This document shows, one piece after another, positions 24,843 to 46,004 of a stretch of 58,225 nucleotides of DNA. The notes under the pieces were generated by a model. It was not told the DNA's origin and made no database searches. It saw only the letters and a program-made list of their open reading frames with translations. Each line of letters begins with the position of its first letter. The first letter of the stretch is position 1. The DNA comes from a virus. Both the position numbers and the translations under genes were made by a program. The stretch covers positions 1 to 58,225 of the IMG/VR virus record IMGVR_UViG_3300022074_000042. One strand, written 5' to 3'.

Positions 24843-25691
24843 ATGAGAGTATTATTTATATCTGACTTCACACTCGAACAAAGACAAGGTGGCGCTCAAG
24901 TAAGCAATAAATTGCTTATAGATAAAGGCAAAGAGTTGGGTCTTGATATAAAAGAACATCATCACAACTCATCAGTTACTGATTTCCTATCGTCTTATGA
25001 TTTAGTGGTTAATTCTAATTTAGAAGCTATTAGTAAAATAACTCCTCCAAAAATACCTTTGATTATTAAATCTCCTAATTCTGTTAGGTTGGAGCATGAC
25101 TCTTGTAGTTATTTAGACAATGACACAAGAAAGCTTTTGTTTTCTAAATCTAAAAAGAATTTTTTTTTAAGTAATTATCATTACAATTATTTTAAACATT
25201 TGTATGGGGATTACTTTCACAATGTAGAAATTGTCTACGACCCTATCGACACTTCTAAGTTTAAAAAATCGGACCATGAAAAAACATATGATGTGGTTTA
25301 TTGTGGTTACTTACATCCACTTAAAGGTTTAAACAACTTACTTCGGTTCGCGAAGCAACATACAGATAGGCAAATTGATATTTTTGGATGGGGAGAACTT
25401 TCTCCTCAAGAAACTTTTAAAGGTTATGATAATATTAAGTTTAATGGTGAGGTAAAATATGAAGAAATTCCTTCGATATTCCAATCAGCGAAAGCTATTT
25501 TTCATCAACCTATAGTAAATGAACCATTTTGCAGAATGGTAGGCGAGGCGATTTTATGCGGTGTGGAGGAAATTATAGGTGACAAATCAAAAATAGGAGC
25601 CTACATTGAATTCAATGATGTTGGTTATGAAAACTTTAGAGACGGCTGCGAAAACGCTCCATCTATATTTTGGGAAAGGGCTTTAAAATGA
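24843..25691 (+). CDS. Glycosyltransferase, GT-B fold (GT4-like)
   Basis: 282 residues, short for the family. The N terminus has a Gly-rich start (FTLEQRQGGAQVSNK), and the C-terminal nucleotide-sugar half is clear: VVYCGYLHPLKGLNNLLRFA (about 154-173), IDIFGWGE, FNGEVKYEEIPSIFQSAKAIFHQP, then EPFCRMVGEAILCG (about 234-247), the GT4 E-x7-E type site. It opens the glycan-synthesis island. The next gene overlaps its stop by four bases. Confidence 0.85.
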   Translation: MRVLFISDFTLEQRQGGAQVSNKLLIDKGKELGLDIKEHHHNSSVTDFLSSYDLVVNSNLEAISKITPPKIPLIIKSPNSVRLEHDSCSYLDNDTRKLLFSKSKKNFFLSNYHYNYFKHLYGDYFHNVEIVYDPIDTSKFKKSDHEKTYDVVYCGYLHPLKGLNNLLRFAKQHTDRQIDIFGWGELSPQETFKGYDNIKFNGEVKYEEIPSIFQSAKAIFHQPIVNEPFCRMVGEAILCGVEEIIGDKSKIGAYIEFNDVGYENFRDGCENAPSIFWERALK

Positions 25692-26533
25692 ATTTTGTTT
25701 GTGGAACTTATTTTAAGCATCAATGCGGCTTACAGTTAACGGATTATAAAAATGCCAGAGATTCTGTTTTTGTTAATTTCCAAAATGAATATTTAGACAA
25801 CAATCTTGTATTTTGCAAACCCGAATATCTAAGTTTATTAAATACTTATTTAAAAATAGGTTCTGTGAAAATCCCTGATGTATTTGATCTAGTTACCCAT
25901 AATTCTGACATTAATTTTGGCGCTCAAGAGATTGATTATGTATTAGATTTATTCCCAAATATTAATAATTGGTATACTCAAAACTTAACGTTTAATCATC
26001 CTCAATTAAAGCCTATTCCTATAGGAATCGCTAATCCTAAATGGTCTCATGGTAATCAACCAAGGTTTCTTGAGATTATGGAGGAGAATCAAGATAAGCA
26101 GAATAAAGTCTATGTTAATTTTAATGTCTCTACCAATCCTCCAGCCAGACATGATTGTTTAAATAAAATATCAGATCAATACCGTCCTCAAAATAAAAAA
26201 AATTATCCCAATGCGGCCTCGATACAAGATCATGACGATTTTGTGGAATCCACTCAAAAAGATTATTTAAGAAGTATAGCTAAATCTTACTTCACAGTTT
26301 CTCCTGTGGGTAATGGTTTAGATTGTCATAAAACTTGGGAAGCCATCTATATGAAAAGTGTTCCTATCGTCACTAGATGGCATGGGGTAGAAAAGTTTAA
26401 AGAAATGGGAATACCTATTCTAATCATAGACGATTGGTCTGAATTAAAAGACTTAGATCTTTCAGAAGACAATTATAAAAACATATGGGGAGATTTTAAT
26501 GTAAATTCTCTTAATTTTAATTTATTTAAATAA
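25688..26533 (+). CDS. Glycosyltransferase-like protein (exostosin-type pattern)
   Basis: 281 residues from the ATG at 25688, which overlaps the previous TGA (ATGA) and follows GGGAAAGGG at a ribosome-site distance; a TTG 18 bases earlier is in frame but less likely. The C-terminal segment TVSPVGNGLDCHKTWEAIYM (about 200-219) followed by SVPIVTR matches the donor site pattern of exostosin-like and related GT-B enzymes (D-HKTWEA). The N-terminal half has QLTDYKNARDSVFVN and IPIGIANPKW. Acceptor unknown; part of the island. Confidence 0.65.
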   Translation: MNFVCGTYFKHQCGLQLTDYKNARDSVFVNFQNEYLDNNLVFCKPEYLSLLNTYLKIGSVKIPDVFDLVTHNSDINFGAQEIDYVLDLFPNINNWYTQNLTFNHPQLKPIPIGIANPKWSHGNQPRFLEIMEENQDKQNKVYVNFNVSTNPPARHDCLNKISDQYRPQNKKNYPNAASIQDHDDFVESTQKDYLRSIAKSYFTVSPVGNGLDCHKTWEAIYMKSVPIVTRWHGVEKFKEMGIPILIIDDWSELKDLDLSEDNYKNIWGDFNVNSLNFNLFK

Positions 26534-27168
26534 TGAAAAGTAGAAGCAGAGAATCGCACGATAATACTATGTATAATTTGCATGGTTTAGAATTTTGGGA
26601 AAAACATAACAAAGAACATATTGACCAAGCTTTTGATAATGAAGAGTTAAAAGTAGGCCGACTTTTGGAAAAAAATCCATCCATAAGAAAAAATGCGATA
26701 GATATAGGAAGCGGTGGAGGATGGATGAGTAAAAAACTTTCTAGTATTTTTGAAAATGTTTATAGCATAGAGCCTTCTTCAAAAGCTGTTAGCTTATGTA
26801 AAAGCTTATATGATTTACCGAACATTAAATGGATAGAGGGCTATGCGGAGGATATTTTAAAAAATGAAGAAATGCCCAAAGAAAATGTTTTTATTAATAC
26901 CTGCTCTGTTTTTATGCATATAGATGATAAAGATTTAATTCCTACTCTTGAGTATATTAACGAAAACTTTACTAACAGTATTTTTAGCTTTCAAGAATTT
27001 TGGTCTGAAGATATACCTTTTAACCAGCCCTTAACGAACTGTAGGACTAAAGCTTGGTGGCAATCTAATTTAAGTAATTGGGATCTAGATTTTCATGGCC
27101 CTAGTATGGCTGAACATGGAGATATGTATAAAAACTTTTTTAAAGGAATTCACGGACGTAAAAAATGA
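26533..27168 (+). CDS. SAM-dependent methyltransferase (class I)
   Basis: 211 residues. Motif I is clear: AIDIGSGGGWMSKKL (about 56-70), followed by SIEPSSKAV (acidic residue binding the SAM ribose) and an INTCSVFMHIDD segment at the motif IV position. Its place among glycosyltransferases points to O- or N-methylation of a sugar, or capping of a glycan chain. Start overlaps the previous stop (TAATG) and its own stop overlaps the next start (ATGA). Confidence 0.85.
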   Translation: MKSRSRESHDNTMYNLHGLEFWEKHNKEHIDQAFDNEELKVGRLLEKNPSIRKNAIDIGSGGGWMSKKLSSIFENVYSIEPSSKAVSLCKSLYDLPNIKWIEGYAEDILKNEEMPKENVFINTCSVFMHIDDKDLIPTLEYINENFTNSIFSFQEFWSEDIPFNQPLTNCRTKAWWQSNLSNWDLDFHGPSMAEHGDMYKNFFKGIHGRKK

Positions 27169-27902
27169 AAAAAAAAGTTACTTATATTCTAAATACTTGG
27201 CAGCGTCCTCATACTCTTAAGGATCAAGTAGACGCAATTTCTAATCAAACAACAAAATGTGATGAGCTTATGATCTGGCAGAATAAACCAGAAAAAGCAG
27301 AGGATTCATTCATTATCCGAGACGATGAGGGATCTTTAAAAGTTTCTCATAACAATTATAATTATGGAGTTTGGGCTAGATTTGCTTTCGCTTTAAATGC
27401 TAAATCTGATTATATTTGCTTATTAGATGATGACACAATCCCAGGAAGTAAATGGACAGAAAATTGCATTGAAAACATTGAAAAAGAAAACGGCTTATAT
27501 GGAACGGTCGGAGTTGTTTTTGATGATACCAAATATCAATCATTTGAAAGATTTGGGTGGCCGAATCCAAACGAAGAAAAAAAACAAGTTGACATCGTGG
27601 GTCACTCTTGGTTTTTCCATAGGGATCTTTTAAGCGCTTTTTGGAGAGAAACTGGTCCTCCATTAAATAATATCTGTGGAGAGGATGTGCATTTTTCATA
27701 TTCTATACAGAAATATTTAGGATTAAACACTTATGTCCCGCCTCATCCAAAAGAAGATTTAGATCTTTGGGGAAGCAAACCTAAAGAGGCTATGCAATAC
27801 GGTGTTGATAAAAATGCTATTTCAGTCAACTCTAATGGAATTGATTTTGGTTTATCTTTAGATCACTACTATAAAAAAGGATTCAAATTATTGAGGTTGT
27901 AA
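27165..27902 (+). CDS. Glycosyltransferase, GT-A fold (GT2-like)
   Basis: 245 residues. The N terminus VTYILNTWQRPHTLKDQVDAI is the nucleotide-binding start of GT2 enzymes. YICLLDDDTIPG (about 85-96) gives the metal-binding DDD/DxD motif. VDIVGHSWFFHRDLL and GEDVHFSYSIQKYLG (about 171-185) match the acceptor side and the catalytic ED. The family transfers single sugars from UDP- or GDP-sugars. It is coupled to both neighbours. Confidence 0.88.
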   Translation: MKKKVTYILNTWQRPHTLKDQVDAISNQTTKCDELMIWQNKPEKAEDSFIIRDDEGSLKVSHNNYNYGVWARFAFALNAKSDYICLLDDDTIPGSKWTENCIENIEKENGLYGTVGVVFDDTKYQSFERFGWPNPNEEKKQVDIVGHSWFFHRDLLSAFWRETGPPLNNICGEDVHFSYSIQKYLGLNTYVPPHPKEDLDLWGSKPKEAMQYGVDKNAISVNSNGIDFGLSLDHYYKKGFKLLRL

Positions 27903-28888
27903 TGAAAATATTAATTTGTTTTGGAACAAGACCAGAGTGGTTAAAGGTAAAACCCTTGTTGAAAACTTTAGATAATTATCAGCTTTTATTTACTGGGCAA
28001 CATGTTGATCTTTTAAAAGACGTATGCACGGATTATAAAATAAAAATAAATCAAAATAAAAATAGACTAGATCAACTAGTCAGTGACTGTTTGTTACAAT
28101 TCCCAGAAGGTGATTTTGATTCTGTCTTAATTCAAGGAGATACAGCTTCTGCTTTTGCTTGTTCTGTGGCGGCTTTTCATAGAAAGAAAAAAATTTACTA
28201 TTTAGAAGCTGGTCTTAGAAGCTATAACCTTGAACATCCATATCCAGAGGAGGGGTATAGACAAATGATTTCAAGAATTTCTGATCTAAACTTATGCCCA
28301 ACTTCTTTATCTAAAGGTAATTTATTTAATGAACTAGCAAACGGCGATTGTCATGTGGTTGGTAATACAGTTTTAGATAACCTTTTACCCTACAAGGAAA
28401 AATGTGAATATGGCAATAAAGTCTTAGTAACTCTACATAGAAGAGAAAATCATGAACAAATGAGCGAATGGTTTAAAGCTGTTAATGATTTAGCTAAACA
28501 AAACAGCGAATTAGAATTTATATTACCTTTACATCCAAGTCCAAATGTGCAGCAGCACAAACACTTGTTAAACCACATAAACGTCTTAGATCCACTTCCT
28601 CATTCGATGTTGTTAGATATTTTAGTAAAATCAAAACTTGTAATTAGTGATAGCGGAGGTTTACAAGAAGAGGCTAGTTTCTTTAATAAAAAAGTCATAG
28701 TTTGTAGGCAGACAACTGAAAGGCCAGAAGGTAAAAACTCTGGGCATTTAATCATGTGCCAGTCACCTAAAGAATTATGTGGAATATTTTATAATTTAGA
28801 AGATAATTACAAAATCGAAGAGAAATGCCCTTACGGAGACGGCGAGTCTTCAATAAAGGTAAAAAAAATACTTGATGAAAAACTTTAG
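27902..28888 (+). CDS. wecB: UDP-N-acetylglucosamine 2-epimerase
   Basis: 328 residues. It converts UDP-GlcNAc to UDP-ManNAc. Family marks: CFGTRPEWLKVKPLL at the start, QGDTASAFA (about 78-86), YLEAGLRSYNLEHPYPEEGYR (about 99-119), LVTLHRRENHEQM, and SDSGGLQEEASF with RQTTERPEGK near 250-280. Slightly short compared with E. coli WecB (376). The symbol denotes the family; the exact substrate could differ. It makes a donor sugar precursor for the island's transferases. Start overlaps the previous TAA. Confidence 0.93.
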   Translation: MKILICFGTRPEWLKVKPLLKTLDNYQLLFTGQHVDLLKDVCTDYKIKINQNKNRLDQLVSDCLLQFPEGDFDSVLIQGDTASAFACSVAAFHRKKKIYYLEAGLRSYNLEHPYPEEGYRQMISRISDLNLCPTSLSKGNLFNELANGDCHVVGNTVLDNLLPYKEKCEYGNKVLVTLHRRENHEQMSEWFKAVNDLAKQNSELEFILPLHPSPNVQQHKHLLNHINVLDPLPHSMLLDILVKSKLVISDSGGLQEEASFFNKKVIVCRQTTERPEGKNSGHLIMCQSPKELCGIFYNLEDNYKIEEKCPYGDGESSIKVKKILDEKL

Positions 28889-29576
28889 ACAAGATTTTAT
28901 TAATTTAACTGAAAAGCTTAGAGGAAAAGAAAAGTTTTCTTTTTCTAAATATGCTGATGGTGAATATAAAATTTTAAGGAATGAGGCTATAACTAATTGT
29001 GACAATTGGACTTTTTCTCCTGACTTGCATCGAAAAGAACAATCTCTTCTTTTAGAATCTTTTCAATACGACCACGATGATTACATTGTTGGAATAAGTT
29101 GTCCATGCTGTCAGCCTATGGAGCATGTTCAGTGGATGAGAGATACTGTAAAAACAAAAAATGTAACTTGGGCTAATTTATTTGTTAATAGCAATTATCC
29201 ATATTTTGAAAAAGACCTTATCCCTATTTTTAATGATTGGGGCGAAGATGTTTTTCTTTTTGCTAATGAAAACGGCATCTCTAAACAAATGCCATTTAAA
29301 ATCAAAAAATACTTCCCGCTCAATATGAAAGCTTGGCAAGAGCCTTTTCTTTCTCATTGGATAAATCTAGGTATGCAAAAAGCTAAAGAATCTGAAGGAG
29401 CTTTATTTCTATTTGCAGGTGGGCCACTCGGTAACATTTTAAGTTATAAACTTCACAAAGCTAATCCTTTTAATACTTACATAGATATTGGTTCTACAAT
29501 TAGTCCTTGGGTAGTTGGTAAAAATAGAGACTATCATTTTGGAGGGAAGACATCACAACAAACTTGTATTTGGTAA
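28875..29576 (+). CDS. GT-D-like glycosyltransferase (putative)
   Basis: 233 residues from the ATG at 28875; a TTG directly before is less likely. FSFSKYADGEYKIL (about 21-34) resembles the R-x-GDGE motif of GT-D and DUF1792-type enzymes, with Lys in place of Arg. LFLFAGGPLGNILSYKLH and NTYIDIGSTISPW (about 175-215) match the C-terminal conserved part. A CPCCQP cluster near residue 75 is unusual. It overlaps the end of the epimerase gene by 14 bases. Activity is inferred from these motifs only. Confidence 0.6.
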   Translation: MKNFRQDFINLTEKLRGKEKFSFSKYADGEYKILRNEAITNCDNWTFSPDLHRKEQSLLLESFQYDHDDYIVGISCPCCQPMEHVQWMRDTVKTKNVTWANLFVNSNYPYFEKDLIPIFNDWGEDVFLFANENGISKQMPFKIKKYFPLNMKAWQEPFLSHWINLGMQKAKESEGALFLFAGGPLGNILSYKLHKANPFNTYIDIGSTISPWVVGKNRDYHFGGKTSQQTCIW

Positions 29577-30271
29577 TGGATAACTTTAAAAATATAGTTT
29601 ACTCACATTCAGAATATTTCGATATTTTAGATATTTTTTTAGAACAACAAAAAAAGTTTGGAATAGAAAATATATTAGTATTCTCTGACAAAAAATTCAA
29701 CGATGAAAATGAGCATATCATTTACAATGAAAATGATGTTTATAGCGAAAGATTAAAAAAATCTTTAGAGAAAGTAAAAGAAGATATTATTTTATATCAA
29801 CATGAAGATATGTTTTTATACAAAAAACCGAATATAAATAAGGTTAAAAAATACATAAACATATTAAAAGACTCAAATTATTCGTTTATTAGACTCTGCA
29901 AAACAGGAGATTGTATTTTATCAAAATCCAATCTATTATCTTCCTTGTGGGAAGTAGATCCAACTTCAAAAGATTTCTTTGCACTACAACCAACAATATG
30001 GAAAAGAAAAAGTTTAATATCTTTTCTAGAAAAATCTAATAAATGTAGTGGGTGGGATTTAGAATTAAATTCTGGTAAAATTAATTCATCAATAAGAGGA
30101 CTTTTACACTATGATGGCGAAGAAGCTAGGGGTGGTCATTTCAATTCTTGCGTTTGGCCTTATGTAGCTACAGCTATAGTAAAAGGTGGATGGAATTTTA
30201 GAGAATACTCGACTGAATTAAGCAGGATAAAAAAGATAAAAAAAAGTAAAAGACAACATGCCGTTTGGTAA
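29576..30271 (+). CDS. Putative glycosyltransferase or sugar-chain protein
   Basis: 231 residues when begun at the ATG at 29576, which overlaps the previous TAA; an upstream in-frame TTG is less likely. The pattern is alpha/beta with DIILYQHEDMFLYKKP (about 74-89) at the place where GT-A-like enzymes have their acidic metal motif, then FALQPTIWKRKSLISFLE and GGHFNSCVWPYVATAIVKGGWNF. I cannot name a family. Neighbours on both sides are sugar enzymes. Confidence 0.55.
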   Translation: MDNFKNIVYSHSEYFDILDIFLEQQKKFGIENILVFSDKKFNDENEHIIYNENDVYSERLKKSLEKVKEDIILYQHEDMFLYKKPNINKVKKYINILKDSNYSFIRLCKTGDCILSKSNLLSSLWEVDPTSKDFFALQPTIWKRKSLISFLEKSNKCSGWDLELNSGKINSSIRGLLHYDGEEARGGHFNSCVWPYVATAIVKGGWNFREYSTELSRIKKIKKSKRQHAVW

Positions 30272-30277
30272 ATTTTT

Positions 30278-31780
30278 ATGAAAATATTAGGTTTTAGCGC
30301 TGGCTCACACGATTCTAGTTATGCCATCTTTGAAGATGGTCGTTTAGTAATACACGAAGAATTAGAGAGGATAACTAGAGTAAAAGAAACAGAAGAAGAT
30401 GTATTGCAATATTTAGAAGAGTCAGGGGTAGACCTTGATGAGTTTGACTACATTGTTACATACCCACACGGGAACCCTATAGGTTACTCACAGACTTACT
30501 TAAATATACAACGTAAAAACCCATCTAAATGTGTAGAGATTGGTCATCATTTAGCTCATGCAGCTAATGCTTTTTATAATAGCAAGTATGATGACTCATT
30601 AGTTGTAACGATAGATGGAGGGGGTTGGGACAATGGAAGACCTGGATGTCTAACGTCATGGCAAGCTGATAAAGATAGTATTAAAAATTTAGATTATAGA
30701 ATGTCTCCAAATTTAGGTGGGTTTTGGCAAGATTGCACAAGAGAGATTTTTGGATTAAGCGGTGGTGGACCTCCATATGGGTGTCAGGCTGGAACCGTTA
30801 TGGCTATGTCATGTATGGCTAATGAATCTGAAACACCAGAAAGACCCTACAGTCAATATGCGGGTTGTTCTGATCAAAGAAAATATAATTTAGCACAAGG
30901 TATTCAAGATGTTACGGAGAATATTGTAAAAGAATATATACAGAAAAATCTAGGAGAAAACACCAACTTGTGTTTAGCTGGCGGTGTCGTTCTCAATTGT
31001 GTATTAACTGGCAAGATTAAATCTTGGTTTCCTCAAATTAAAAATATTTTTATACCACCTGTTCCTTATGATGCAGGTTTAGCTATTGGGTGTGTACAAT
31101 ACTTTTTGAAAGAACATTTGAAAAAGGATTTGATAATTGATCAATTATTTGACTCTCCATATTTAGGAGCGTCTTATGGCGATGAACACATTAATAATGC
31201 TTTATTAGAGTTTGCAGATAAAATTGAAACTGTTGAATGCTCTGATTTAGATGTAGCAAAATTATTGACAGAAAAAAATATTATATCTGTTTATGGAGGT
31301 AAAAGCGAGTCGGGTAGAAGAGCTTTAGGCAATAGGTCTATATTAGCAGATCCTAGACACGAAGATATGAAGGATATTATTAACCAAAAAGTCAAACACA
31401 GGCAAAGCTTTAGACCTTTTGCTCCATCTATATTACGAGAGCATGTAGCTGATTGGTTTGTAGAAGATATAGATAGCCCCTATATGAGTTTTGCTATACC
31501 ATTTAAAAAAGGAAAAGCCAAATTAGTTCCTGCTGTTGTCCACTTGGACGGCACGGGTAGACTACAAACTGTAACACAGTCATCTAATAATTGGTATTAC
31601 AATTTTATAAAGACATTTAGCTCGTTAACTGATGTCCCAATTATTCTAAATACTAGCTTTAATGATAGAGAGCCTATTGTTGAAACACCAAGTGATGCGA
31701 TCAAAACTTTTTTAAAAACAGATATAGATTTTCTTTACTTTAGAGAAAAAAATTGTTTAGTTAAAAAAAATATTCAATAA
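30278..31780 (+). CDS. Carbamoyltransferase (NodU/CmcH family)
   Basis: 500 residues. It should transfer a carbamoyl group from carbamoyl phosphate, using ATP, to a sugar or antibiotic hydroxyl. Conserved parts: MKILGFSAGSHDSSYAIFEDG at the N terminus, HHLAHAANAFY (about 89-99) with metal-binding His, VVTIDGGGWDNG, then YGGKSESGRRALGNRSILAD (about 338-357) and LNTSFNDREPIV (about 460-471). The length is slightly less than the family's 560-600. As part of the island it probably carbamoylates a glycan. Six bases separate it from the preceding gene. Confidence 0.92.
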   Translation: MKILGFSAGSHDSSYAIFEDGRLVIHEELERITRVKETEEDVLQYLEESGVDLDEFDYIVTYPHGNPIGYSQTYLNIQRKNPSKCVEIGHHLAHAANAFYNSKYDDSLVVTIDGGGWDNGRPGCLTSWQADKDSIKNLDYRMSPNLGGFWQDCTREIFGLSGGGPPYGCQAGTVMAMSCMANESETPERPYSQYAGCSDQRKYNLAQGIQDVTENIVKEYIQKNLGENTNLCLAGGVVLNCVLTGKIKSWFPQIKNIFIPPVPYDAGLAIGCVQYFLKEHLKKDLIIDQLFDSPYLGASYGDEHINNALLEFADKIETVECSDLDVAKLLTEKNIISVYGGKSESGRRALGNRSILADPRHEDMKDIINQKVKHRQSFRPFAPSILREHVADWFVEDIDSPYMSFAIPFKKGKAKLVPAVVHLDGTGRLQTVTQSSNNWYYNFIKTFSSLTDVPIILNTSFNDREPIVETPSDAIKTFLKTDIDFLYFREKNCLVKKNIQ

Positions 31781-31781
31781 T

Positions 31782-32591
31782 ATGAAAACTGCTATTTGTT
31801 TACATGGTCTAGCTAGAGGAAGCTCTACGCCAGCATACGGTGCATATAAGGAAAAGTTCGCCACGCTTTTAAGCAAGATAGGTGATGCTGATGTTTTTAT
31901 CCACTCTTGGGATACTGACATTTCCGAAGAGTTGGTCGAAATATTTAACCCAATTTCGTATAAAATTGAAAATCAAAAAGACTTTGCTGAAGAACTTGAT
32001 AGGCTTAAAGATATAAACAATTCTCATAACACAGGAGAAATTCAATATAACTTATTTAATATGTTAAGTTTCTTGTATTCACGGAAGCGTTCAGTTGACT
32101 TAAAAAGGCAATATGAAATTGAAAATAATATTAAATATGATTGTGTTCTTATTTCTAGGTTTGATGTAGGTTTTCATAATTCAGGTCTTAACAAAACAAG
32201 CCACTTAAATTTTAATTTAAATTTAGATATGGAAAAAGTCTACCAAGCATACTGGGATCAACTAAACGCTGGATCATCTGATCATTGGTATTACAGTAAT
32301 TCAGAAAATATAGACATCATTTCAACCATATATGATAAAGTATTTGAGTATCTACAACCAAACAGCGACTATACATATTTATGTAAGACTGGATGGCCAA
32401 TTAGTAATAAACATGATAAATTTTCTAATGAGTTACTAAAAGAAGATCGATCTAGTGATTTAGCTATTTATGTTTCTGATGATACGGTCCTTGTAAATCC
32501 TCACTGCTTGTATAAATATCACCTTATGATTAATAATTTATGGGAAAATAATCAATCTATATTTTTAAATAAAAACTTGTGGCATGACTAG
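31782..32591 (+). CDS. Glycosyltransferase-like protein
   Basis: 269 residues. The N terminus MKTAICLHGLARGSS is a strand-loop typical of nucleotide-sugar enzymes. ADVFIHSWDTDIS (about 34-46) and VLISRFDVGFHN (about 120-131) place acidic residues where capsular-polysaccharide GT-A-like enzymes bind metal. The central part is helical. No decisive motif; the role is inferred from pattern and neighbourhood. It starts two bases after the carbamoyltransferase stop. Confidence 0.6.
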   Translation: MKTAICLHGLARGSSTPAYGAYKEKFATLLSKIGDADVFIHSWDTDISEELVEIFNPISYKIENQKDFAEELDRLKDINNSHNTGEIQYNLFNMLSFLYSRKRSVDLKRQYEIENNIKYDCVLISRFDVGFHNSGLNKTSHLNFNLNLDMEKVYQAYWDQLNAGSSDHWYYSNSENIDIISTIYDKVFEYLQPNSDYTYLCKTGWPISNKHDKFSNELLKEDRSSDLAIYVSDDTVLVNPHCLYKYHLMINNLWENNQSIFLNKNLWHD

Positions 32592-32596
32592 CTTAG

Positions 32597-32618
32597 TAAT
32601 AATATGATAAAATTATTA
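32597..32618 (+). repeat. Inverted repeat enclosing the start codon of gene 32604
   Basis: Arms TAATAAT (32597-32603) and ATTATTA (32612-32618) enclose an eight-base loop that begins with the ATG. All AT pairs, so weak and possibly chance. Confidence 0.3.
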
Positions 32619-33122
32619 ATATTAGATGTCGATGGAGTTTTAACTGATGGCACAAAACTTTATTCGGAAAACGGACTCGGTAAAATGAAATCGTTTTGCG
32701 ATAAAGATTTTACAGCGATCAAAAGAATAAAAGCTTCTGGAGTTAAAGTGTGTTTCCTTAGTGGAGATGAAAATGTAAATAGAGCTATAGCTGAAAATAG
32801 GAATATTGATTTTCACTTCGCGAGAGGCAAAAACAAAAAAGATTTTTTGGAGAAGTTTTGTATGATTTACGATTGTCTTGCAGATGATATTTGTTTCGTT
32901 GGTGATGATTTATTCGATGTGGATTTATTAAAAAATGTAAAATATTCTTTCTGCCCTACAGATTCTTGCGAAGAGGTTAAAGATTCCTGTATACATGTAT
33001 TATCTAGTAAAGGTGGCCATAATTTAATTATGGAACTCCATGATTATTTATTATCTAATGACTTAATTAAAAAAGCAGACTTACAATCTGTTATGGATCT
33101 TGATGCAGCAGAAAAATTTTAA
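32604..33122 (+). CDS. KdsC-like HAD phosphatase
   Basis: 172 residues. Motif I LDVDGVLTDG (about 7-16) has the two catalytic Asp; a Ser in LSGDEN (motif II) and GDDLFDVDLL (motif IV, about 99-108) complete the HAD site. This cap-less layout is that of KDO-8-phosphate phosphatase KdsC and CMP-NeuAc-synthetase-linked relatives. Here it stands beside a PfkB kinase and a nucleotidyltransferase-isomerase fusion and may remove a phosphate during nucleotide-sugar synthesis. The next gene overlaps its end by 20 bases. Confidence 0.87.
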   Translation: MIKLLILDVDGVLTDGTKLYSENGLGKMKSFCDKDFTAIKRIKASGVKVCFLSGDENVNRAIAENRNIDFHFARGKNKKDFLEKFCMIYDCLADDICFVGDDLFDVDLLKNVKYSFCPTDSCEEVKDSCIHVLSSKGGHNLIMELHDYLLSNDLIKKADLQSVMDLDAAEKF

Positions 33123-33807
33123 TCTTGGTTTATTTGGCAGGAAGTATTTAGATACAGTAGTTTATTTAAATACTTTAAAGTCGGGCGAAACCAATATTGC
33201 TTTGAAAGTTGATAAAACTGTTGGCGGCATTTTTAATATTTTAAAGGCTAATATTCCATCGGTTATATCTTACTGCTATCAAGACAGTGAAGTAGAAGCA
33301 TTTATTATCAGTGAGTCTGATAGTTCGACAAGAAGCTCTATTATTCACTCTTTTCGTAATTCTGAAAAACCTAAAATAAAAGAGGATTTATTAGATTGGT
33401 TACATATTGCATATGTAGATGACTTGTCTCAACCTGAAATATTAAATAATTTAAAAACAAAAATAAGTTTAGATTTTTGCACAATTAAAGAAAGAGAAAA
33501 TTATCTCCATTTAATTAAAAAATCATCATTAGTTTTCGATTCTAGAGAAAGGAAAGCTTTATATAGCGACCTTAATTTTAAAACACCTTTAATATTACAC
33601 GATAAACACGGCTGCGAATGCATAATTCAAGGTAAAGTCGTGAGTGAGGGTTTCACCGATCCACAGGAAAATATTCATGTCAATGGAGCTGGCGATATTT
33701 TCGCTGGAATATTTATTTCTAAATACTATAATTCTACACTAGACGATGCTATAAAATTAACTCCAAAAGAGACAACCAAATACCTTATTAAAAAAAATGA
33801 AATATAA
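33103..33807 (+). CDS. PfkB-family sugar kinase
   Basis: 234 residues from the ATG at 33103 (a TTG directly before is less likely), shorter than the 300-330 usual for the family. The start NFNLGLFGRKYLDTVVYLN resembles the PfkB N terminus. HVNGAGDIFAGIFISKY (about 189-205) is the C-terminal signature with the catalytic Asp and anion hole (GAGD). The middle is reduced, perhaps lacking the usual lid. It overlaps the phosphatase gene and is overlapped by the fusion gene, so the three are translated together. Substrate probably a sugar phosphate. Confidence 0.82.
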   Translation: MQQKNFNLGLFGRKYLDTVVYLNTLKSGETNIALKVDKTVGGIFNILKANIPSVISYCYQDSEVEAFIISESDSSTRSSIIHSFRNSEKPKIKEDLLDWLHIAYVDDLSQPEILNNLKTKISLDFCTIKERENYLHLIKKSSLVFDSRERKALYSDLNFKTPLILHDKHGCECIIQGKVVSEGFTDPQENIHVNGAGDIFAGIFISKYYNSTLDDAIKLTPKETTKYLIKKNEI

Positions 33808-34945
33808 TTTACTTTTACCCATAGCTGGTAAGGCTCAAAGGTTTGTTGATCAAGGTTATACAATGCCCAAGCCTTTAATTATGGCTAAAACAAAACAAGT
33901 TATTGATTGGGCTATGGAGTCTATCGATACAAAAGATTGTAATTTGATTTTTGCTGTAAGGCTTGAACATATAAATAATTTTTCTATAGATGAGATTTTA
34001 AAGCAAAAGTTTGGAGAAAGTGTAAAAATTGTAGTTATTGATCACGATACAGATGGCTCTGTTTCGACATGTTTGTTAGCCAAAGAGTATATTGATAATG
34101 ATATCCCCTTAATTATTTATACCCCAGATGTTTATTTCCAAAACAAATTTGATCCTGATGATATAAATGAAAATTTAGATGGCCTTTTGCTTACTTTTAA
34201 AGCTAATAGCCCAGCTCACAGTTATGTAGCTACAGACGAAAATGGATACGCGACTAAAACGGTAGAAAAACAAGTAATTAGTTCAGATGCGGCTGTTGGT
34301 GTTTATTATTTTAAAAAAGGTAGATATTTTGTTGAATATGCTGAAGAGCTTGTGCGGAAAGACATTAGAACGAAAGATGAGTTTTATATCTGCCCCATGT
34401 ATAATTTGCTGATTAGAGATGGTCGGAGCGTTAGTATTAAGCAGGTTGAAAAAATGCATGTGCTAGGCACTCCAGAAGAATTAGAATTTTTTGTTGATAA
34501 GGTTGCTTACAAATTTGGTGAAAAACCTGTAGGTCTTTGCTGTGATCACTCTGGCTATCAAAGGAAGCAAGATGCTAAAACCGTCTTGGAGTCTTTAGGT
34601 ATTGAATACGTTGATTTTGGATGCCATGTAGAGAAAGATGTAGACTATAATGCTTATGTGAACCAAGCGGTAGAATCCTTAAATAACAAAACTTGTGATT
34701 TTATTTTAGGTTTTTGCAGAACTGGTCAAGGTGTTAATATTTTAGCAAATGATAAAAAAGAAGTAAGGGCTGCATTGATTTTTGACGAATATACAGCGGA
34801 AATGTCTCGCAGACATAATTGTGCCAACTTTTTTTCTATACCTTCTAAGTATACATCCATTTCTTCTCTTAAAGATATTATAAATACATTAGTAAGTTCA
34901 TCTTTTGATGGGGGTAGACATATGACTAGAGTAAGCAAAAAATGA
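33797..34945 (+). CDS. Fusion of sugar nucleotidyltransferase and RpiB-type isomerase
   Basis: 382 residues, two domains. Residues about 1-235 are a nucleotidyltransferase: LLLPIAGKAQRFVDQGYTMPKPLI, then VIDHDTDGSVSTCLLAKEYI and an acidic YTPDVYF. Residues about 243-382 match RpiB: CCDHSGYQRKQDAK, GIEYVDFGCHVEKDVDYNAY, FCRTGQGVNILAND with the ring-opening Cys, RRHNCANFFS with the catalytic His, and FDGGRHMTRV near the end. Both sites look intact. RpiB normally interconverts ribose-5-phosphate and ribulose-5-phosphate. The fusion, next to a kinase and a phosphatase, suggests one enzyme makes both ends of a sugar-activation route. I know of no named family with this order. Confidence 0.85.
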   Translation: MKYNLLLPIAGKAQRFVDQGYTMPKPLIMAKTKQVIDWAMESIDTKDCNLIFAVRLEHINNFSIDEILKQKFGESVKIVVIDHDTDGSVSTCLLAKEYIDNDIPLIIYTPDVYFQNKFDPDDINENLDGLLLTFKANSPAHSYVATDENGYATKTVEKQVISSDAAVGVYYFKKGRYFVEYAEELVRKDIRTKDEFYICPMYNLLIRDGRSVSIKQVEKMHVLGTPEELEFFVDKVAYKFGEKPVGLCCDHSGYQRKQDAKTVLESLGIEYVDFGCHVEKDVDYNAYVNQAVESLNNKTCDFILGFCRTGQGVNILANDKKEVRAALIFDEYTAEMSRRHNCANFFSIPSKYTSISSLKDIINTLVSSSFDGGRHMTRVSKK

Positions 34946-35355
34946 TCTTAATATCTCACAGAGGAAATCTAGAAGGGCCATCTAATTTAGAAAATCACCC
35001 CGACCAGATCCAAAAGGTTTTGCGGTTAGGCTTTGATTGTGAAATAGATTTGTGGAGAGAAGACAGTAAATGGTATCTTGGTCATGATCATCCAGAGTAT
35101 GAAGTTGATGTAAATTTTTTTTGCAAACCAAAATTGTGGATTCACGCAAAAAACTTATCTGCATTAAATTGTATACCGAGATATTTAAATTTTTTTTGGC
35201 ATCAAGAAGATGATTTCTCTTTAACATCCAAACACTTTATATGGACTCACCCAAACAAACCTGTTTCGGAAAAATCCGTTATTGTAGATAACACAAAAAA
35301 CTGGAAAGAAAAAAACTACAAATCTTTCGGGGTTTGTTCTGATTGGATTTTATGA
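34942..35355 (+). CDS. GDPD-like short protein
   Basis: 137 residues. LISHRGNLEGP (about 3-13) and FDCEIDLWREDSKWYLGHDHP (about 32-52) carry the His-Arg-Gly, Glu-x-Asp and His-Asp points of glycerophosphodiester phosphodiesterases, but the protein is half the usual 230-250 length and lacks much of the barrel. Related short forms occur in polysaccharide clusters. It may act on a phosphodiester linkage in the glycan, or be a scaffold. Overlaps the fusion gene stop (ATGA) and the next gene start. Confidence 0.65.
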   Translation: MILISHRGNLEGPSNLENHPDQIQKVLRLGFDCEIDLWREDSKWYLGHDHPEYEVDVNFFCKPKLWIHAKNLSALNCIPRYLNFFWHQEDDFSLTSKHFIWTHPNKPVSEKSVIVDNTKNWKEKNYKSFGVCSDWIL

Positions 35356-36401
35356 AAAAAATTATTATTACAGGAGTTACAGGTCAAGATGGTAGCCTTA
35401 TGGCTGATTATCTTTTGAAACATACAGAGCATACAATTATTGGAGGCGCTAGGAGACTTAGTGTAAAAAACCACAAAAACATCGAACACCTAGAAGATAA
35501 CGACAGATTCTTTCTTATTGATTTAGATGTTTCAGACCCTCAAAACACAGAAAGAGTTATATCTGAACACAAGCCTGACTATTTTATAAATTTTGCAGCA
35601 AACTCTTTTGTCGGAACTAGTTGGAAAATGCCGACTCAACATATGGAGACAAATGCTATGGCTGTTTTGCACCAATTAGAAGCTATTCGCAGACACGCTC
35701 CCAATTGCCGATATTACAACGCTGGCAGCTCTGAAGAGTTTGGCGATATTGTAGAGTCTCCACAAACAGAAGAACACCCTTTGCGCCCTAGAAGCCCGTA
35801 TGGGGCTGCTAAATGCTCCGCTAGGCATTTGGTCAAAGTTTATAGAGATTCATACGATATTTATGCCGTCCAAGGGTTTTTGTTCAACCATGAAGGAGTA
35901 AGAAGAGGGGAAGAGTTTGTGACTCGCAAAATTACAAAAAATGTCGCCAGAATTCTTGTAGAATTTGAATTAGGTAAAGAAATTGAACCTTTACAATTAG
36001 GTAATGTAGATTCAAAAAGAGACTGGAGTGATGCTGAAGATTTTGTTCAAGGTGTCTGGTTGATGTTGAACCAAGATAGGAAAGATCCAAAAGAATATGT
36101 TTTATCTTCCAATGAGACTCACACTATTAGAGAGTTTGTGGAAGAGGCTTTTAATTTTGCTGGATTTCACAGAAGCCAATGCAAATGGAAGGGTGAAGGG
36201 TTGGAAGAAAAGTATTTTCACGGATCTGATCTTCTTGTAGAGATCAACAAAGATTTTTACAGACCAGCAGAGGTTGATTTGTTATGGGGAGACTCTACTA
36301 GAGCTAGAGAAGAGTTGGGTTGGGAGCCAAAAACTAATTTTTTTCAGCTTGTGAAAAAAATGATTGACCGAGATGTGGCGGCAGTTTACCCTTACCCGTG
36401 A
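35352..36401 (+). CDS. gmd: GDP-mannose 4,6-dehydratase-like SDR enzyme
   Basis: 349 residues from the ATG at 35352, which overlaps the previous TGA; a TTG nine bases earlier is less likely. GVTGQDGSLMADYLL is the NAD(P) site, NAGSSEEFGD (about 125-134) gives the catalytic Ser/Glu region, SPYGAAKCSARHLV (about 151-164) the YxxxK pair, and FNHEGVRRGEEFVTRKIT (about 178-195) matches the GMD substrate loop. The family turns GDP-mannose into GDP-4-keto-6-deoxymannose, a precursor of fucose and rhamnose types. The symbol is by similarity. Confidence 0.9.
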   Translation: MKKIIITGVTGQDGSLMADYLLKHTEHTIIGGARRLSVKNHKNIEHLEDNDRFFLIDLDVSDPQNTERVISEHKPDYFINFAANSFVGTSWKMPTQHMETNAMAVLHQLEAIRRHAPNCRYYNAGSSEEFGDIVESPQTEEHPLRPRSPYGAAKCSARHLVKVYRDSYDIYAVQGFLFNHEGVRRGEEFVTRKITKNVARILVEFELGKEIEPLQLGNVDSKRDWSDAEDFVQGVWLMLNQDRKDPKEYVLSSNETHTIREFVEEAFNFAGFHRSQCKWKGEGLEEKYFHGSDLLVEINKDFYRPAEVDLLWGDSTRAREELGWEPKTNFFQLVKKMIDRDVAAVYPYP

Positions 36402-42823: not shown

Positions 42824-43452
42824 ACGAATCACTACTTAGATTTAACAAAAAGCAAAGATATGTGGTCTTTGATACTGAAACAGAGGGTTTGAACTTGATT
42901 ACTTCTCGACCTTGGCAAGTCGCTTGGATGGTCGTAGAAGGAGACAGTGTAATTGAGAAAAATGATCTGTTTATTGAGTGGCCTGACTTGGAGGTTTCAG
43001 AGGGTGCTGCTAAAATCACAGGTTTTACAGAAAAGGAATACAACAAAAGATGTGAACCCCCTAAACAAGTCTGGGATAAATTTTCTAAAGAATTATATAA
43101 TCCTGAAAACTTGATAATAGGGCAGAACCTTTTAGGTTTTGATGTTTATATGGTTAATATTTGGAGAAGGCTTATGAATTTACGTGCAGATTATTCTTTT
43201 ATACCTAGAATTTTAGACACTAAGGCTTTAGCCACAGCTATAGCTAAAGAAATGCCTGTAGTTAAAGATGATTTTATTGGCTGGCAATACAGGTTGTTAA
43301 ATTACAGAGAAAGAGGTTTAAAAACATCTCAAGCCACTTTATTGAAGAAATATAATATTGACCATGACCCTAAGAGGCTGCATGATGCTCTATACGATAT
43401 TGAGATGAACTTTAAAGTATTCCGTAAACAATTATTCGATCTTGAGATATGA
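42820..43452 (+). CDS. DEDDh 3'-5' exonuclease (DnaQ-like proofreading)
   Basis: 210 residues. Exo I VVFDTETEGLNL (Asp/Glu, about 15-26), Exo II IGQNLLGFDVYMVN (about 100-113), and Exo III HDALYDIEMNFKVF (His-Asp, about 187-200) give the four acidic residues and the His of the DEDDh group. The gene stands between the two parts of polymerase III alpha and overlaps both by ATGA, so it probably proofreads for that polymerase. It lacks a clear beta-clamp motif. Confidence 0.92.
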   Translation: MNESLLRFNKKQRYVVFDTETEGLNLITSRPWQVAWMVVEGDSVIEKNDLFIEWPDLEVSEGAAKITGFTEKEYNKRCEPPKQVWDKFSKELYNPENLIIGQNLLGFDVYMVNIWRRLMNLRADYSFIPRILDTKALATAIAKEMPVVKDDFIGWQYRLLNYRERGLKTSQATLLKKYNIDHDPKRLHDALYDIEMNFKVFRKQLFDLEI

Positions 43453-46004
43453 GTTCTAGCACATTTAAAGGGTATGATACCCCATTTCCAGTTGGGGTGA
43501 AACTCCCAGAAATCAAAATACAAAAAAAATATTATGACGAGGTTTCTTGTAAAGACCTGGGAGACAACTTTAAATTCTTAAGGAAGCTTTGCTTTGCGCG
43601 TCTTAAAGAGAAAGGAATTCATGAGTTTGAAAACGCTCAAGTTTATTACGATAGATTAAAAGAAGAGTTAACGATTTTTGATGAACTTGGTTTTGTGGAT
43701 TACATTCTTTTGAATTGGGATATTATTAACTTCTGTAAAGAAAACGATATTCCGACAGGAGCAGGTAGAGGTAGTGCGGCAGGTTCCTTGGTTCTCTATG
43801 TCATAGGAGTTACCAATATCGATCCTATTGAATACGATCTATTCTTTGAGAGGTTCGTCTCAAAAAGCAGGGCTAAGAAGATCGAGCATAATGGAGAAGT
43901 ATTTTTAGATGGTAGTTTATTGGCTGACGTAGATAACGATATTTCCTACGATAGAAGGGCAGAGGTTATTAAATACATCGAAGATAAGTATGAAGGTAAG
44001 ACATCAAAAATTCTCACCTTAAATACTCTTAGTGGTAAGCTTTGCATGAAAGAGTGTGGTAAGATTATAGCTGAACTTTCTGAAATGGAGGTTAATCAAA
44101 TAAGTGATACAATCCCTAAACATTTTGGCATCGTAGCTAAATTAGATACAGCATATCAAGAGAGCGAGTCTTTCAAATCTTACGCTGATAAACATCCTAA
44201 AGTATTTAATATAGCTAAAAAATTACAAGGATTGAATAAAAATACTGGAGTCCATCCTTCTGGGATTTCTATTTCATATTATGATTTAGATGGGATTATG
44301 CCACTTCAGAAAACTAATGATGATTCTTTAATTTCTGGTTACGATATGAATGACGTAGCTAGCCTTAGTGTCAAATTTGACATTCTAGGTCTAAGAACTC
44401 TTTCTGTTGTCCATGATGTTTGCAAGCAAGTGGGCATAAACGCTTCGGACATAGATATTAACCATGAAACTATTTATGCTGCTTTATCCTGTCTCCGATC
44501 ACCTCAAGGTCTTTTCCAGATAGAAGCAGAAACAAACTTCAAAGTTTGCAAGCTAATAGCTCCTCAAAATCTAGAGCAATTGTCTGCCGTGGTAGCTATA
44601 GCAAGACCTGGAGCTTTAGATTTCAAGGATAATTATGCTACTTATGTAAGAACTGGGGATTTCCAGTCTGTTCATGAATTCTTTGATGATATTTTGAGCT
44701 ATACTGGTGGTATTCCGCTCTATCAAGAGCAACTTATGAAGATGGCTGTAAAGGTTGGCTTCACTCTAGACGAAGCTGAACAACTAAGAAGAATTGTTGG
44801 CAAAAAGAAAGTCGATCAAATGCCAGCTTGGAAGGCCAAGATTGAGGAAAAAATTATTTCCAACAAATTAGATAGTGCTATTGGTGATGTTCTTTGGAGA
44901 GTCGCGGAGGATTCTGCTAATTACTCATTTAACAAATCTCACTCTATCAGTTACGCTCACTTGGCTGCTATAACTGTTTACTTAAAATTTACATACCCAC
45001 AAGAGTTCTTTTTGAGCTTATTAAAGTTTGCTAAATTTGAACCTAACTCTCATGAGGAAATAGCTAAAATCTCTCAAGAGCTTTCTCATTTCGATATTAA
45101 GCTTTTACCACCAGATTTAAATAAGTCTGATATCGACTTTAAGATAGAGGGTAAAAATATTAGGTATGGATTAAATTCTATTAAAGGCGTATCCACTAAA
45201 GTTTTACAATCTTTGCTTGATTTTAGAGAGGAGTCTTTCTCTAATAAATATGAAATATTCTTGTCTGCAAAACAAGCAGGTTTGAATATAGGAACTTTAT
45301 CAGCTTTAGTTCAAGCGGGTTTACTAGATTCTTTTGTCAAAAGCAATCGTCCTAGATTAGTCTTAGAGGCTCAAACATTTAATATTTTAACAGATAGAGA
45401 AAAGAGAAATTTTGTAGCCCTTGGGGAGAGAGATGATTATGACATAATTAACTCCATTCATAATGCTAAAAAGGGAGATATCGTTGGAGATGATAACAGA
45501 AAGCTCTTTTCAGAGAAAAGATTCAATACATTTCGTAAAAAATATCAGCCATATAAAGATATTTACGAGATGAACAAAGAGCATATAAAATACGCTAATT
45601 GGTTTTTCGAAGAGAAATTGTTGGGCTATAGTTATTCTCACAATATTAGAGAAGTGTTTAGTTATGAAGACGATTTTAATTCCGCAGACGATGTTAAGGA
45701 GCTTGGAGACCGTGCTAATGTAAAATTTGTAGGTGTTTTGACTGATATTATGCGTAGAACTAGCAGAAATGGCAATAAATATGCCCGTTTAACTATGCAG
45801 GACGAAGGGGGAGTTCTAGAAGGTTTATTTTTAGATGGTAGTAGAGATGCTAGACTGACAAATTATTTAGATTCTGGAAAAAAATTACCCAAAAAGTCAG
45901 ATGTCGTGATAATATATGGCTCTAAGGGAGATGATATTGTTTTCATCGACAAGATTTTTCCCCTAAAAGACAAAATCTACATGAAGTTATCTGAACTTAA
46001 ATAG
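43449..46004 (+). CDS. dnaE: DNA polymerase III alpha, polymerase core (separate gene)
   Basis: 851 residues. Begins exactly where DnaE leaves the PHP domain (LGDNFKFLRKLCFARLKEKG). GAGRGSAAGS (104-113), NIDPIEYDLFFERF, ADVDND (D160, D162; 159-164) and KFDILGL (D311) give the catalytic palm. IPLYQEQLMKMAVKVGFTLDEA (about 416-437) and FNKSHSISYAHLAA (about 496-509) are fingers and HhH-type segments. The C-terminal OB fold is clear (FVGVLTDIMRRTSRNGNKYAR, about 760-780). An insert with IEHNGEVFLDG (about 144-155) precedes the catalytic motif. A bacterial-type C-family polymerase is unusual for phages, which mostly use A or B. Confidence 0.93.
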   Translation: MSSSTFKGYDTPFPVGVKLPEIKIQKKYYDEVSCKDLGDNFKFLRKLCFARLKEKGIHEFENAQVYYDRLKEELTIFDELGFVDYILLNWDIINFCKENDIPTGAGRGSAAGSLVLYVIGVTNIDPIEYDLFFERFVSKSRAKKIEHNGEVFLDGSLLADVDNDISYDRRAEVIKYIEDKYEGKTSKILTLNTLSGKLCMKECGKIIAELSEMEVNQISDTIPKHFGIVAKLDTAYQESESFKSYADKHPKVFNIAKKLQGLNKNTGVHPSGISISYYDLDGIMPLQKTNDDSLISGYDMNDVASLSVKFDILGLRTLSVVHDVCKQVGINASDIDINHETIYAALSCLRSPQGLFQIEAETNFKVCKLIAPQNLEQLSAVVAIARPGALDFKDNYATYVRTGDFQSVHEFFDDILSYTGGIPLYQEQLMKMAVKVGFTLDEAEQLRRIVGKKKVDQMPAWKAKIEEKIISNKLDSAIGDVLWRVAEDSANYSFNKSHSISYAHLAAITVYLKFTYPQEFFLSLLKFAKFEPNSHEEIAKISQELSHFDIKLLPPDLNKSDIDFKIEGKNIRYGLNSIKGVSTKVLQSLLDFREESFSNKYEIFLSAKQAGLNIGTLSALVQAGLLDSFVKSNRPRLVLEAQTFNILTDREKRNFVALGERDDYDIINSIHNAKKGDIVGDDNRKLFSEKRFNTFRKKYQPYKDIYEMNKEHIKYANWFFEEKLLGYSYSHNIREVFSYEDDFNSADDVKELGDRANVKFVGVLTDIMRRTSRNGNKYARLTMQDEGGVLEGLFLDGSRDARLTNYLDSGKKLPKKSDVVIIYGSKGDDIVFIDKIFPLKDKIYMKLSELK

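Follow-up and report, generated by a model that had tools for sequence, protein, structure and literature searches.

A conserved viral operon for a KdsC-type phosphatase, a short PfkB-fold kinase and a nucleotidyltransferase-RpiB fusion, with a proposed role in activated-sugar synthesis

Introduction

The synthesis of NDP-heptoses follows a four-step relay, i.e., an isomerase (GmhA), a kinase (HldE or HddA), a HAD phosphatase (GmhB) and a nucleotidyltransferase (HldE or HddC), and multidomain fusions are also known in this pathway (PMC11573728). In phages, the arabinose module of RB69 and the Mosigviruses, formed by the SIS isomerase ORF055c and the transferase-kinase ORF053c-052c, has been proposed to yield an NDP-pentose; the RB69 genes for the arabinose-5-phosphate isomerase and the nucleotidyltransferase-kinase lie beside DNA-modification genes (PMC6024577, PMC13390438), and in phages of this type dCMP is pre-modified by a thymidylate-synthase-family enzyme. 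The Shewanella phage Thanatos makes UDP-xylose, for which a role in base modification was also proposed (PMC12838424). The sugar clusters of cyanophages, on the other hand, have been proposed to serve surface glycans; PfkB kinases were noted in these clusters, and a text search of that paper found neither RpiB nor KdsC mentioned (PMC7824862).

Here we describe a locus in a viral sequence of 58,225 nucleotides (positions 1 to 58,225 of IMG/VR record IMGVR_UViG_3300022074_000042), referred to as the window. Between positions 32604 and 34945 of the + strand, there are three ORFs of 172, 235 and 382 aa, with overlaps of 23 and 11 bases, and it was confirmed that they encode a KdsC-type HAD phosphatase, a short PfkB-fold kinase, and an RmlA/4EVW-type nucleotidyltransferase fused to RpiB. 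An earlier note on this DNA had read the trio as three overlapping genes with four enzyme activities, analogous in its logic to the four-step relay of NDP-heptose synthesis; the ORFs, the family matches and the folds agree with the first point, and the published relay with the second. The features of the operon are:

32604..33122, + strand: ORF 1, KdsC/YrbI-type HAD phosphatase, 172 aa (TIGR01670, PDB matches to the KdsC family, invariant residues)
33100..33807, + strand: ORF 2, short PfkB-family sugar kinase, 235 aa from TTG 33100 (profile, homologues, model, motif)
33797..34945, + strand: ORF 3, whole fusion, a single ORF of 382 aa belonging to PHROG 3980, annotated as unknown function (phrog_3980, 4.9e-75)
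33797..34504, + strand: nucleotidyltransferase domain of the fusion, residues 1-236 (4EVW by sequence and fold)
34529..34939, + strand: RpiB-type sugar-phosphate isomerase domain of the fusion, residues 245-381 (PF02502, fold, residues)
34715 and 34814: catalytic Cys307 and His340, respectively, of the RpiB domain

The phosphatase and the kinase

The product of the first gene matches TIGR01670 at 1.3e-23 with 83.7 bits, a score below the curated cut-off of 106.95 bits. Its PDB matches (from 6e-17) belong to the KdsC family, and the protein matches KdsC models and not GmhB. The DxD nucleophile pair D8/D10, K78 and the GDD at 100-102 are invariant in 13 homologues.

The natural start of the kinase is probably ATG 33103, just past the listed TTG 33100. 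Searched alone, the window kinase gave no Pfam match, and the PHROG search with it found no family. Nevertheless, five of the 40 operon homologues are full-length kinases of 289-305 aa, of which the four that were scanned match PF00294 at 1e-10 to 1e-16, and the family profile aligns end to end with the archaeal kinase 2C49 (4e-12); from these matches, the window protein is identified as a shortened PfkB-family kinase. Its AlphaFold2 model (mean pLDDT 96.0, pTM 0.92) retrieved ketohexokinases and ribokinases with Foldseek, ketohexokinases being the best matches, and G13, D18, G42, N46 and the catalytic Asp199 of the GxGD motif are invariant in 40 sequences. Family profile, ribokinase fold and GxGD motif, which together mark the PfkB/ribokinase family, are thus all present. 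Among family models, the full-length homologues have their best scores with ribokinase-like ones, ribose-1-phosphate kinase among them, and no HldE model appears among the matches listed. We also observed that 35 of the 40 kinases are about 60 residues shorter than a normal PfkB protein and keep all the catalytic motifs.

The nucleotidyltransferase-RpiB fusion

Within the single third ORF, residues 5-232 match 4EVW by sequence (7.8e-16) and residues 245-381 match PF02502 (6.7e-34), as expected from the earlier claim that both activities are joined in one protein. The AlphaFold2 model of the fusion has a mean pLDDT of 92.9 and a pTM of 0.85. In Foldseek searches the nucleotidyltransferase half matched 4EVW (TM 0.83, by target) and LicC (TM 0.79), its best matches being sugar pyrophosphorylases, and the other half matched RpiB structures (1O1X TM 0.92, 3HE8 TM 0.89, rmsd 1.2 A). 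In 41 sequences, K25, D111, E157 and K158 of the nucleotidyltransferase are invariant. In the second domain D250, H251, C307, H340, N341, R374 and R378, which correspond to the catalytic Asp-His, Cys and His-Asn of RpiB and to its phosphate-binding Arg residues, are also invariant. The RpiB fold, whose absence the earlier note had named as a refutation, is present together with the catalytic Cys and His, and with the catalytic residues invariant the idea that this domain is a dead structural appendage is disfavoured.

By its PF02502 match, its fold, and its catalytic Cys, His and phosphate Arg residues, the domain belongs to the RpiB/LacAB family. It differs from the known members in being fused to a nucleotidyltransferase and in its catalytic loop, which reads C-R-[TS]-G-Q-G-x-N in 39 of 39 fused RpiB domains (Arg308, Gln311 and Asn314), so that the catalytic Cys is followed by Arg and the next Ser position is occupied by Asn. 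In contrast, the loop of ordinary RpiB is C-G-[TS]-G-x-G, as found in the solved structures 3PH3, 3HE8 and 1O1X and in four Bacteroidota RpiBs. The Gly after the catalytic Cys that is absent here is common to the solved RpiBs and is not needed for family membership. This altered loop suggests that the substrate may have changed.

Conservation and distribution of the operon

A pattern scan of IMG/VR for the fusion confirmed at least 172 relatives; 80 of these were fetched and, together with two cultured phages and one contig from a metagenome-assembled genome (MAG), gave 51 loci after dereplication at 95% fusion identity. Gene order was counted in the 48 dereplicated loci with at least 1.3 kb of upstream DNA. 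The KdsC gene is present in 47 of the 48 and so is the PfkB gene, the kinase slot of the remaining locus being occupied by an unrecognised ORF. The unbroken contiguous trio is kept in 39 of the 48, with fusion identities down to about 50%, and the other flanking genes vary among loci. All three genes are under purifying selection, with dN (0.05-0.51) well below dS (0.9-2.9, near saturation). The order kept in these loci, the invariant catalytic residues and the low dN relative to dS place the conservation of the trio far beyond chance; a chance arrangement or a frame artefact is ruled out by the 172 relatives and the confident models.

Two cultured cyanophages, the Synechococcus phages Bellamy (gp204-206) and SynMITS9220M01 (gp190-192), carry the operon, with its genes annotated as phosphatase, hypothetical and phosphatase, and full-length homologues of the fusion occur in cultured cyanophages down to 49% identity. 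In a scan of genome contigs from 84,980 species with two specific peptide patterns, the fusion was found only on one 16-kb MAG contig, which is also an IMG/VR record, i.e., a viral contig; 395 Bacteroidota genomes yielded RpiB or nucleotidyltransferase only as separate genes, and no further fusion. An origin of the fusion in bacterial capsule clusters was thus considered and rejected, since neither search contained one and unfused relatives of the nucleotidyltransferase were found instead. As far as these searches go, limited as they are by pattern or by sample, the fusion appears to be restricted to viruses, a provisional conclusion. A search of the accessible literature returned no RpiB-nucleotidyltransferase fusion and no named pathway with this gene set. 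The earlier note knew of no such pathway and proposed looking for the fusion and the gene order in phages and in bacterial clusters. Both were found in phages (Bellamy, SynMITS9220M01 and IMG/VR). The set is not rare, with at least 172 viral relatives of the fusion and the trio in 39 of the 48 loci, but it is not assigned to a known sugar, and bacteria offered only the viral contig in one MAG.

These data also bear on whether the genes work together. They could be independent and merely co-located, the isomerase, the kinase and the phosphatase serving the carbon metabolism of the infected cell instead of one nucleotide-sugar route; cyanophages carry pentose-phosphate genes, and SynMITS9220M01 has glucose-6-phosphate and 6-phosphogluconate dehydrogenases nearby. 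However, the isomerase is covalently fused to the nucleotidyltransferase, the genes overlap and keep their order over deep divergence, and the changes around the catalytic Cys are invariant, unlike ordinary RpiB, making this the least probable of the explanations considered.

Comparison with NDP-heptose synthesis

The earlier note went further and proposed that an RpiB-type enzyme replaces GmhA. Stated in full, the operon would encode a modified D-glycero-D-manno-heptose route in which the RpiB domain acts on sedoheptulose 7-phosphate in place of GmhA. The logic of the four steps is the same (PMC11573728), KdsC and GmhB are both HAD phosphatases, and a transketolase linked to the operon in some relatives (see below) could make sedoheptulose 7-phosphate. 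Nevertheless, the families differ at every step: the isomerase is RpiB and not SIS, the kinase is a ribokinase-like short PfkB and not HldE or a GHMP kinase, the phosphatase is of KdsC type and not of GmhB type, and an RmlA/4EVW-type transferase is fused to the isomerase. RpiB isomerases are not related to the SIS family; they are known on C4-C6 sugars and act on pentose and hexose phosphates. The kinase is closer to ribose-1-phosphate kinases and ribokinases than to HldE, with neither an HldE kinase domain nor HddA recognised in the operon, and its phosphatase is not closest to GmhB. A search for GmhA-type SIS_2 domains was negative for the window and for 12 other records; the only match, a weak one in SynMITS9220M01, lies in a separate cluster.

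One phage can also carry both sets. Besides the operon, SynMITS9220M01 has genes for a GmhA-like protein (gp205), HddA-like proteins (gp196 and gp204), an HddC-like protein (gp198) and an RfaE domain II-like protein (gp206), so that heptose activation in this phage has genes of its own. The simple replacement of GmhA is therefore disfavoured, and the heptose variant is judged quite unlikely. As a side observation, the heptose-type genes of this phage lie in two sets, one HddA/HddC-like (L120:3923-6999) and the other comprising HddA-like, GmhA-like, RfaE-II-like and SDR genes (L016:11679-13679).

Linked genes and glycan context

Two linked genes were absent from the earlier note, i.e., a GDPD-superfamily gene just downstream of the fusion and, in a subset of the relatives, a split transketolase. 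The window also holds a cluster of sugar genes around the operon:

34942..35355, + strand: small GDPD-superfamily protein, directly downstream of the fusion (family linkage, invariant residues)
35343..36401, + strand: GMD-like short-chain dehydrogenase of the same sugar cluster (PF16363, 7e-104)
24843..32591, + strand: glycan cluster (Pfam, NCBIfam and PHROG matches)

The window GDPD-like protein alone gave no Pfam match; a bacterial relative matches PF03009 at 5e-5, and H6, R7, N18, E34, D36, H48 and K70, the HR/N/E-D/H/K catalytic residues of the superfamily, are invariant in 19 aligned homologues. The gene is found in the fetched flank of 45 of the 51 dereplicated loci, and 36 of these 45 have no second ORF of the nucleotidyltransferase family; by this linkage it is probably a fourth member of the module. 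Bacterial genomes group a GDPD-like gene with a beta-PGM-type HAD gene, a member of the same nucleotidyltransferase family (often annotated as glycosyltransferase family 2) and sometimes a cupin (L114:6850-9183, L116:7890-9896, L019:2681-4676, L020:2945-5732), a module for which no assigned function was found; in 12 of the viral loci, too, the fusion is followed by the cupin. These bacterial 4EVW-type nucleoside-diphosphate-sugar pyrophosphorylases thus share with the viral operon the nucleotidyltransferase family, the GDPD-like partner and, in some viral loci, the cupin, but they lack the RpiB fusion and PfkB, and their HAD protein is of beta-PGM instead of KdsC type. In addition, the same nucleotidyltransferase family is fused to a HAD phosphatase in S-CAM9 gp067 and relatives (L018:4344-5726, L088:7829-9214), with a GDPD-like gene nearby. 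The fusion model also matches BFVD entry A0A2H4UUJ1, a Bodo saltans virus protein named glycosyltransferase/phospholipase; it is possible that this is a nucleotidyltransferase-GDPD fusion, which would support the GDPD link.

The GDPD-like partner raises the question of whether a sugar is activated at all. The nucleotidyltransferase could activate a phosphorylated polyol or another small phosphate, giving a CDP-linked product in the style of LicC or CDP-glycerol, with the isomerase, kinase, phosphatase and GDPD-like protein preparing the group. The frequency of the GDPD-like gene, the bacterial neighbourhoods just described and the fold match to LicC would fit this idea. It is nonetheless unlikely, given that RpiB and PfkB suit an aldose phosphate better than a polyol, that no reductase is consistently linked to the operon, and that the best fold matches are sugar pyrophosphorylases.

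A split transketolase, i.e., N-terminal and pyrimidine-binding subunits, occurs in nine of the 51 loci, directly after the fusion, within 0.8 kb, or (L048) inside the module. Since it adjoins the operon, there is a hint that the ketose of the isomerase can come from transketolase. It is absent from Bellamy, from SynMITS9220M01 and from the window record, the last of these being possibly a fragment, and in cultured phages transketolase homologues gave only weak matches, none close. The split enzyme lacks the C-terminal domain (L030, L032, L033, L036, L039, L042, L043, L045 and L048; e.g., L042:7155-8287).

The glycan cluster includes genes for GT1, GT47-like, GT2, WecB and GT-D-like proteins, a methyltransferase, a NodU-type carbamoyltransferase and a DUF7796-like protein, and fits, by its predicted content, the synthesis of surface glycans. 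Within it, positions 25670-26533 match RXYLT1_C (PF24785, 7.5e-10), a family that takes its name from a eukaryotic xylosyltransferase, and the carbamoyltransferase lies at 30278-31780. Elsewhere in the window, positions 43449-46004 encode a polymerase of the bacterial DNA polymerase III alpha type, with RecA-, DnaB- and primase-like genes nearby.

This context is relevant to another explanation, namely that the product is an NDP-pentose for glycosylation of phage DNA bases, as in the arabinosylation of RB69 and the Mosigviruses. The precedents of RB69 and Thanatos favour it, and here too an isomerase, a kinase and a nucleotidyltransferase of a phage may lead to an NDP-pentose. However, the RB69 enzymes belong to other families (a SIS isomerase and a nucleotidyltransferase with an APH-like kinase), neither of which was recognised in the window operon, and they serve DNA modification with a dCMP-modifying gene that is absent here: no match to the thymidylate-synthase family PF00303 was found in nine records (the window, the complete genomes of Bellamy and SynMITS9220M01, and six others), a search that gave a match in 9 of 14 control genomes. 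This absence, together with the glycan cluster around the operon, points to surface glycans and not DNA as the target, and a role as a DNA-glycosylation precursor route is disfavoured and very unlikely.

Proposed pathway

By analogy with NDP-heptose logic, a four-step relay of isomerase, kinase, phosphatase and nucleotidyltransferase would be the most economical reading of the gene set, and we give a probability of roughly 0.6 to the operon being such a route to an NDP-aldose for surface glycans. The data show the gene order, the folds, the retained catalytic residues, the linkage and purifying selection; from these we infer the individual reactions and the sequence in which they run, as well as which sugar, nucleotide and final acceptor are involved. 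In this route the RpiB domain would convert a ketose phosphate, most likely a pentulose phosphate, to an aldose phosphate; in some relatives the ketose may be supplied by the virus-encoded transketolase. The PfkB-fold kinase would then phosphorylate the anomeric position to give an aldose-1,n-bisphosphate, from which the KdsC-type phosphatase would take off the other phosphate to leave aldose-1-phosphate. The nucleotidyltransferase domain would join this sugar-1-phosphate with an NTP to form the NDP-aldose, and glycosyltransferases of the cluster would put the sugar onto a surface glycan of the host or the virion. A pentose takes about half of the probability given to the route.

Some observations stand against the NDP-aldose. 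PfkB kinases usually phosphorylate a primary hydroxyl, and anomeric phosphorylation is documented for HldE; the viral kinase is not closest to HldE, and Foldseek matched it best to ketohexokinases. The operon also occurs in some viruses that lack a transketolase. Moreover, in bacteria the relatives of the nucleotidyltransferase have GDPD-like, HAD and cupin genes as neighbours, so that the viral enzyme might use a substrate other than a sugar-1-phosphate.

A more specific form of the NDP-aldose route can be put forward tentatively, as a possibility held at less than even odds. Viruses could have evolved a new NDP-sugar pathway that draws on a ketose derived from transketolase or the pentose-phosphate pathway and uses the altered RpiB fused to the nucleotidyltransferase, with a step by the GDPD-superfamily protein; the product could be an NDP-pentose or a chain-extended sugar of a kind that is not known in cellular clusters.

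Implications

Through this operon, PHROG 3980 and genes annotated as "phosphatase" or "hypothetical" acquire a testable reading, and the operon's enzymes may offer a compact means for making activated sugars. It is also relevant to the remodelling of host surfaces by phages against superinfection. If this conserved and apparently virus-restricted operon of aquatic phages, two of them cultured, does serve to activate a sugar, it would mean that viruses bring their own sugar chemistry and not merely copies of that of their hosts.
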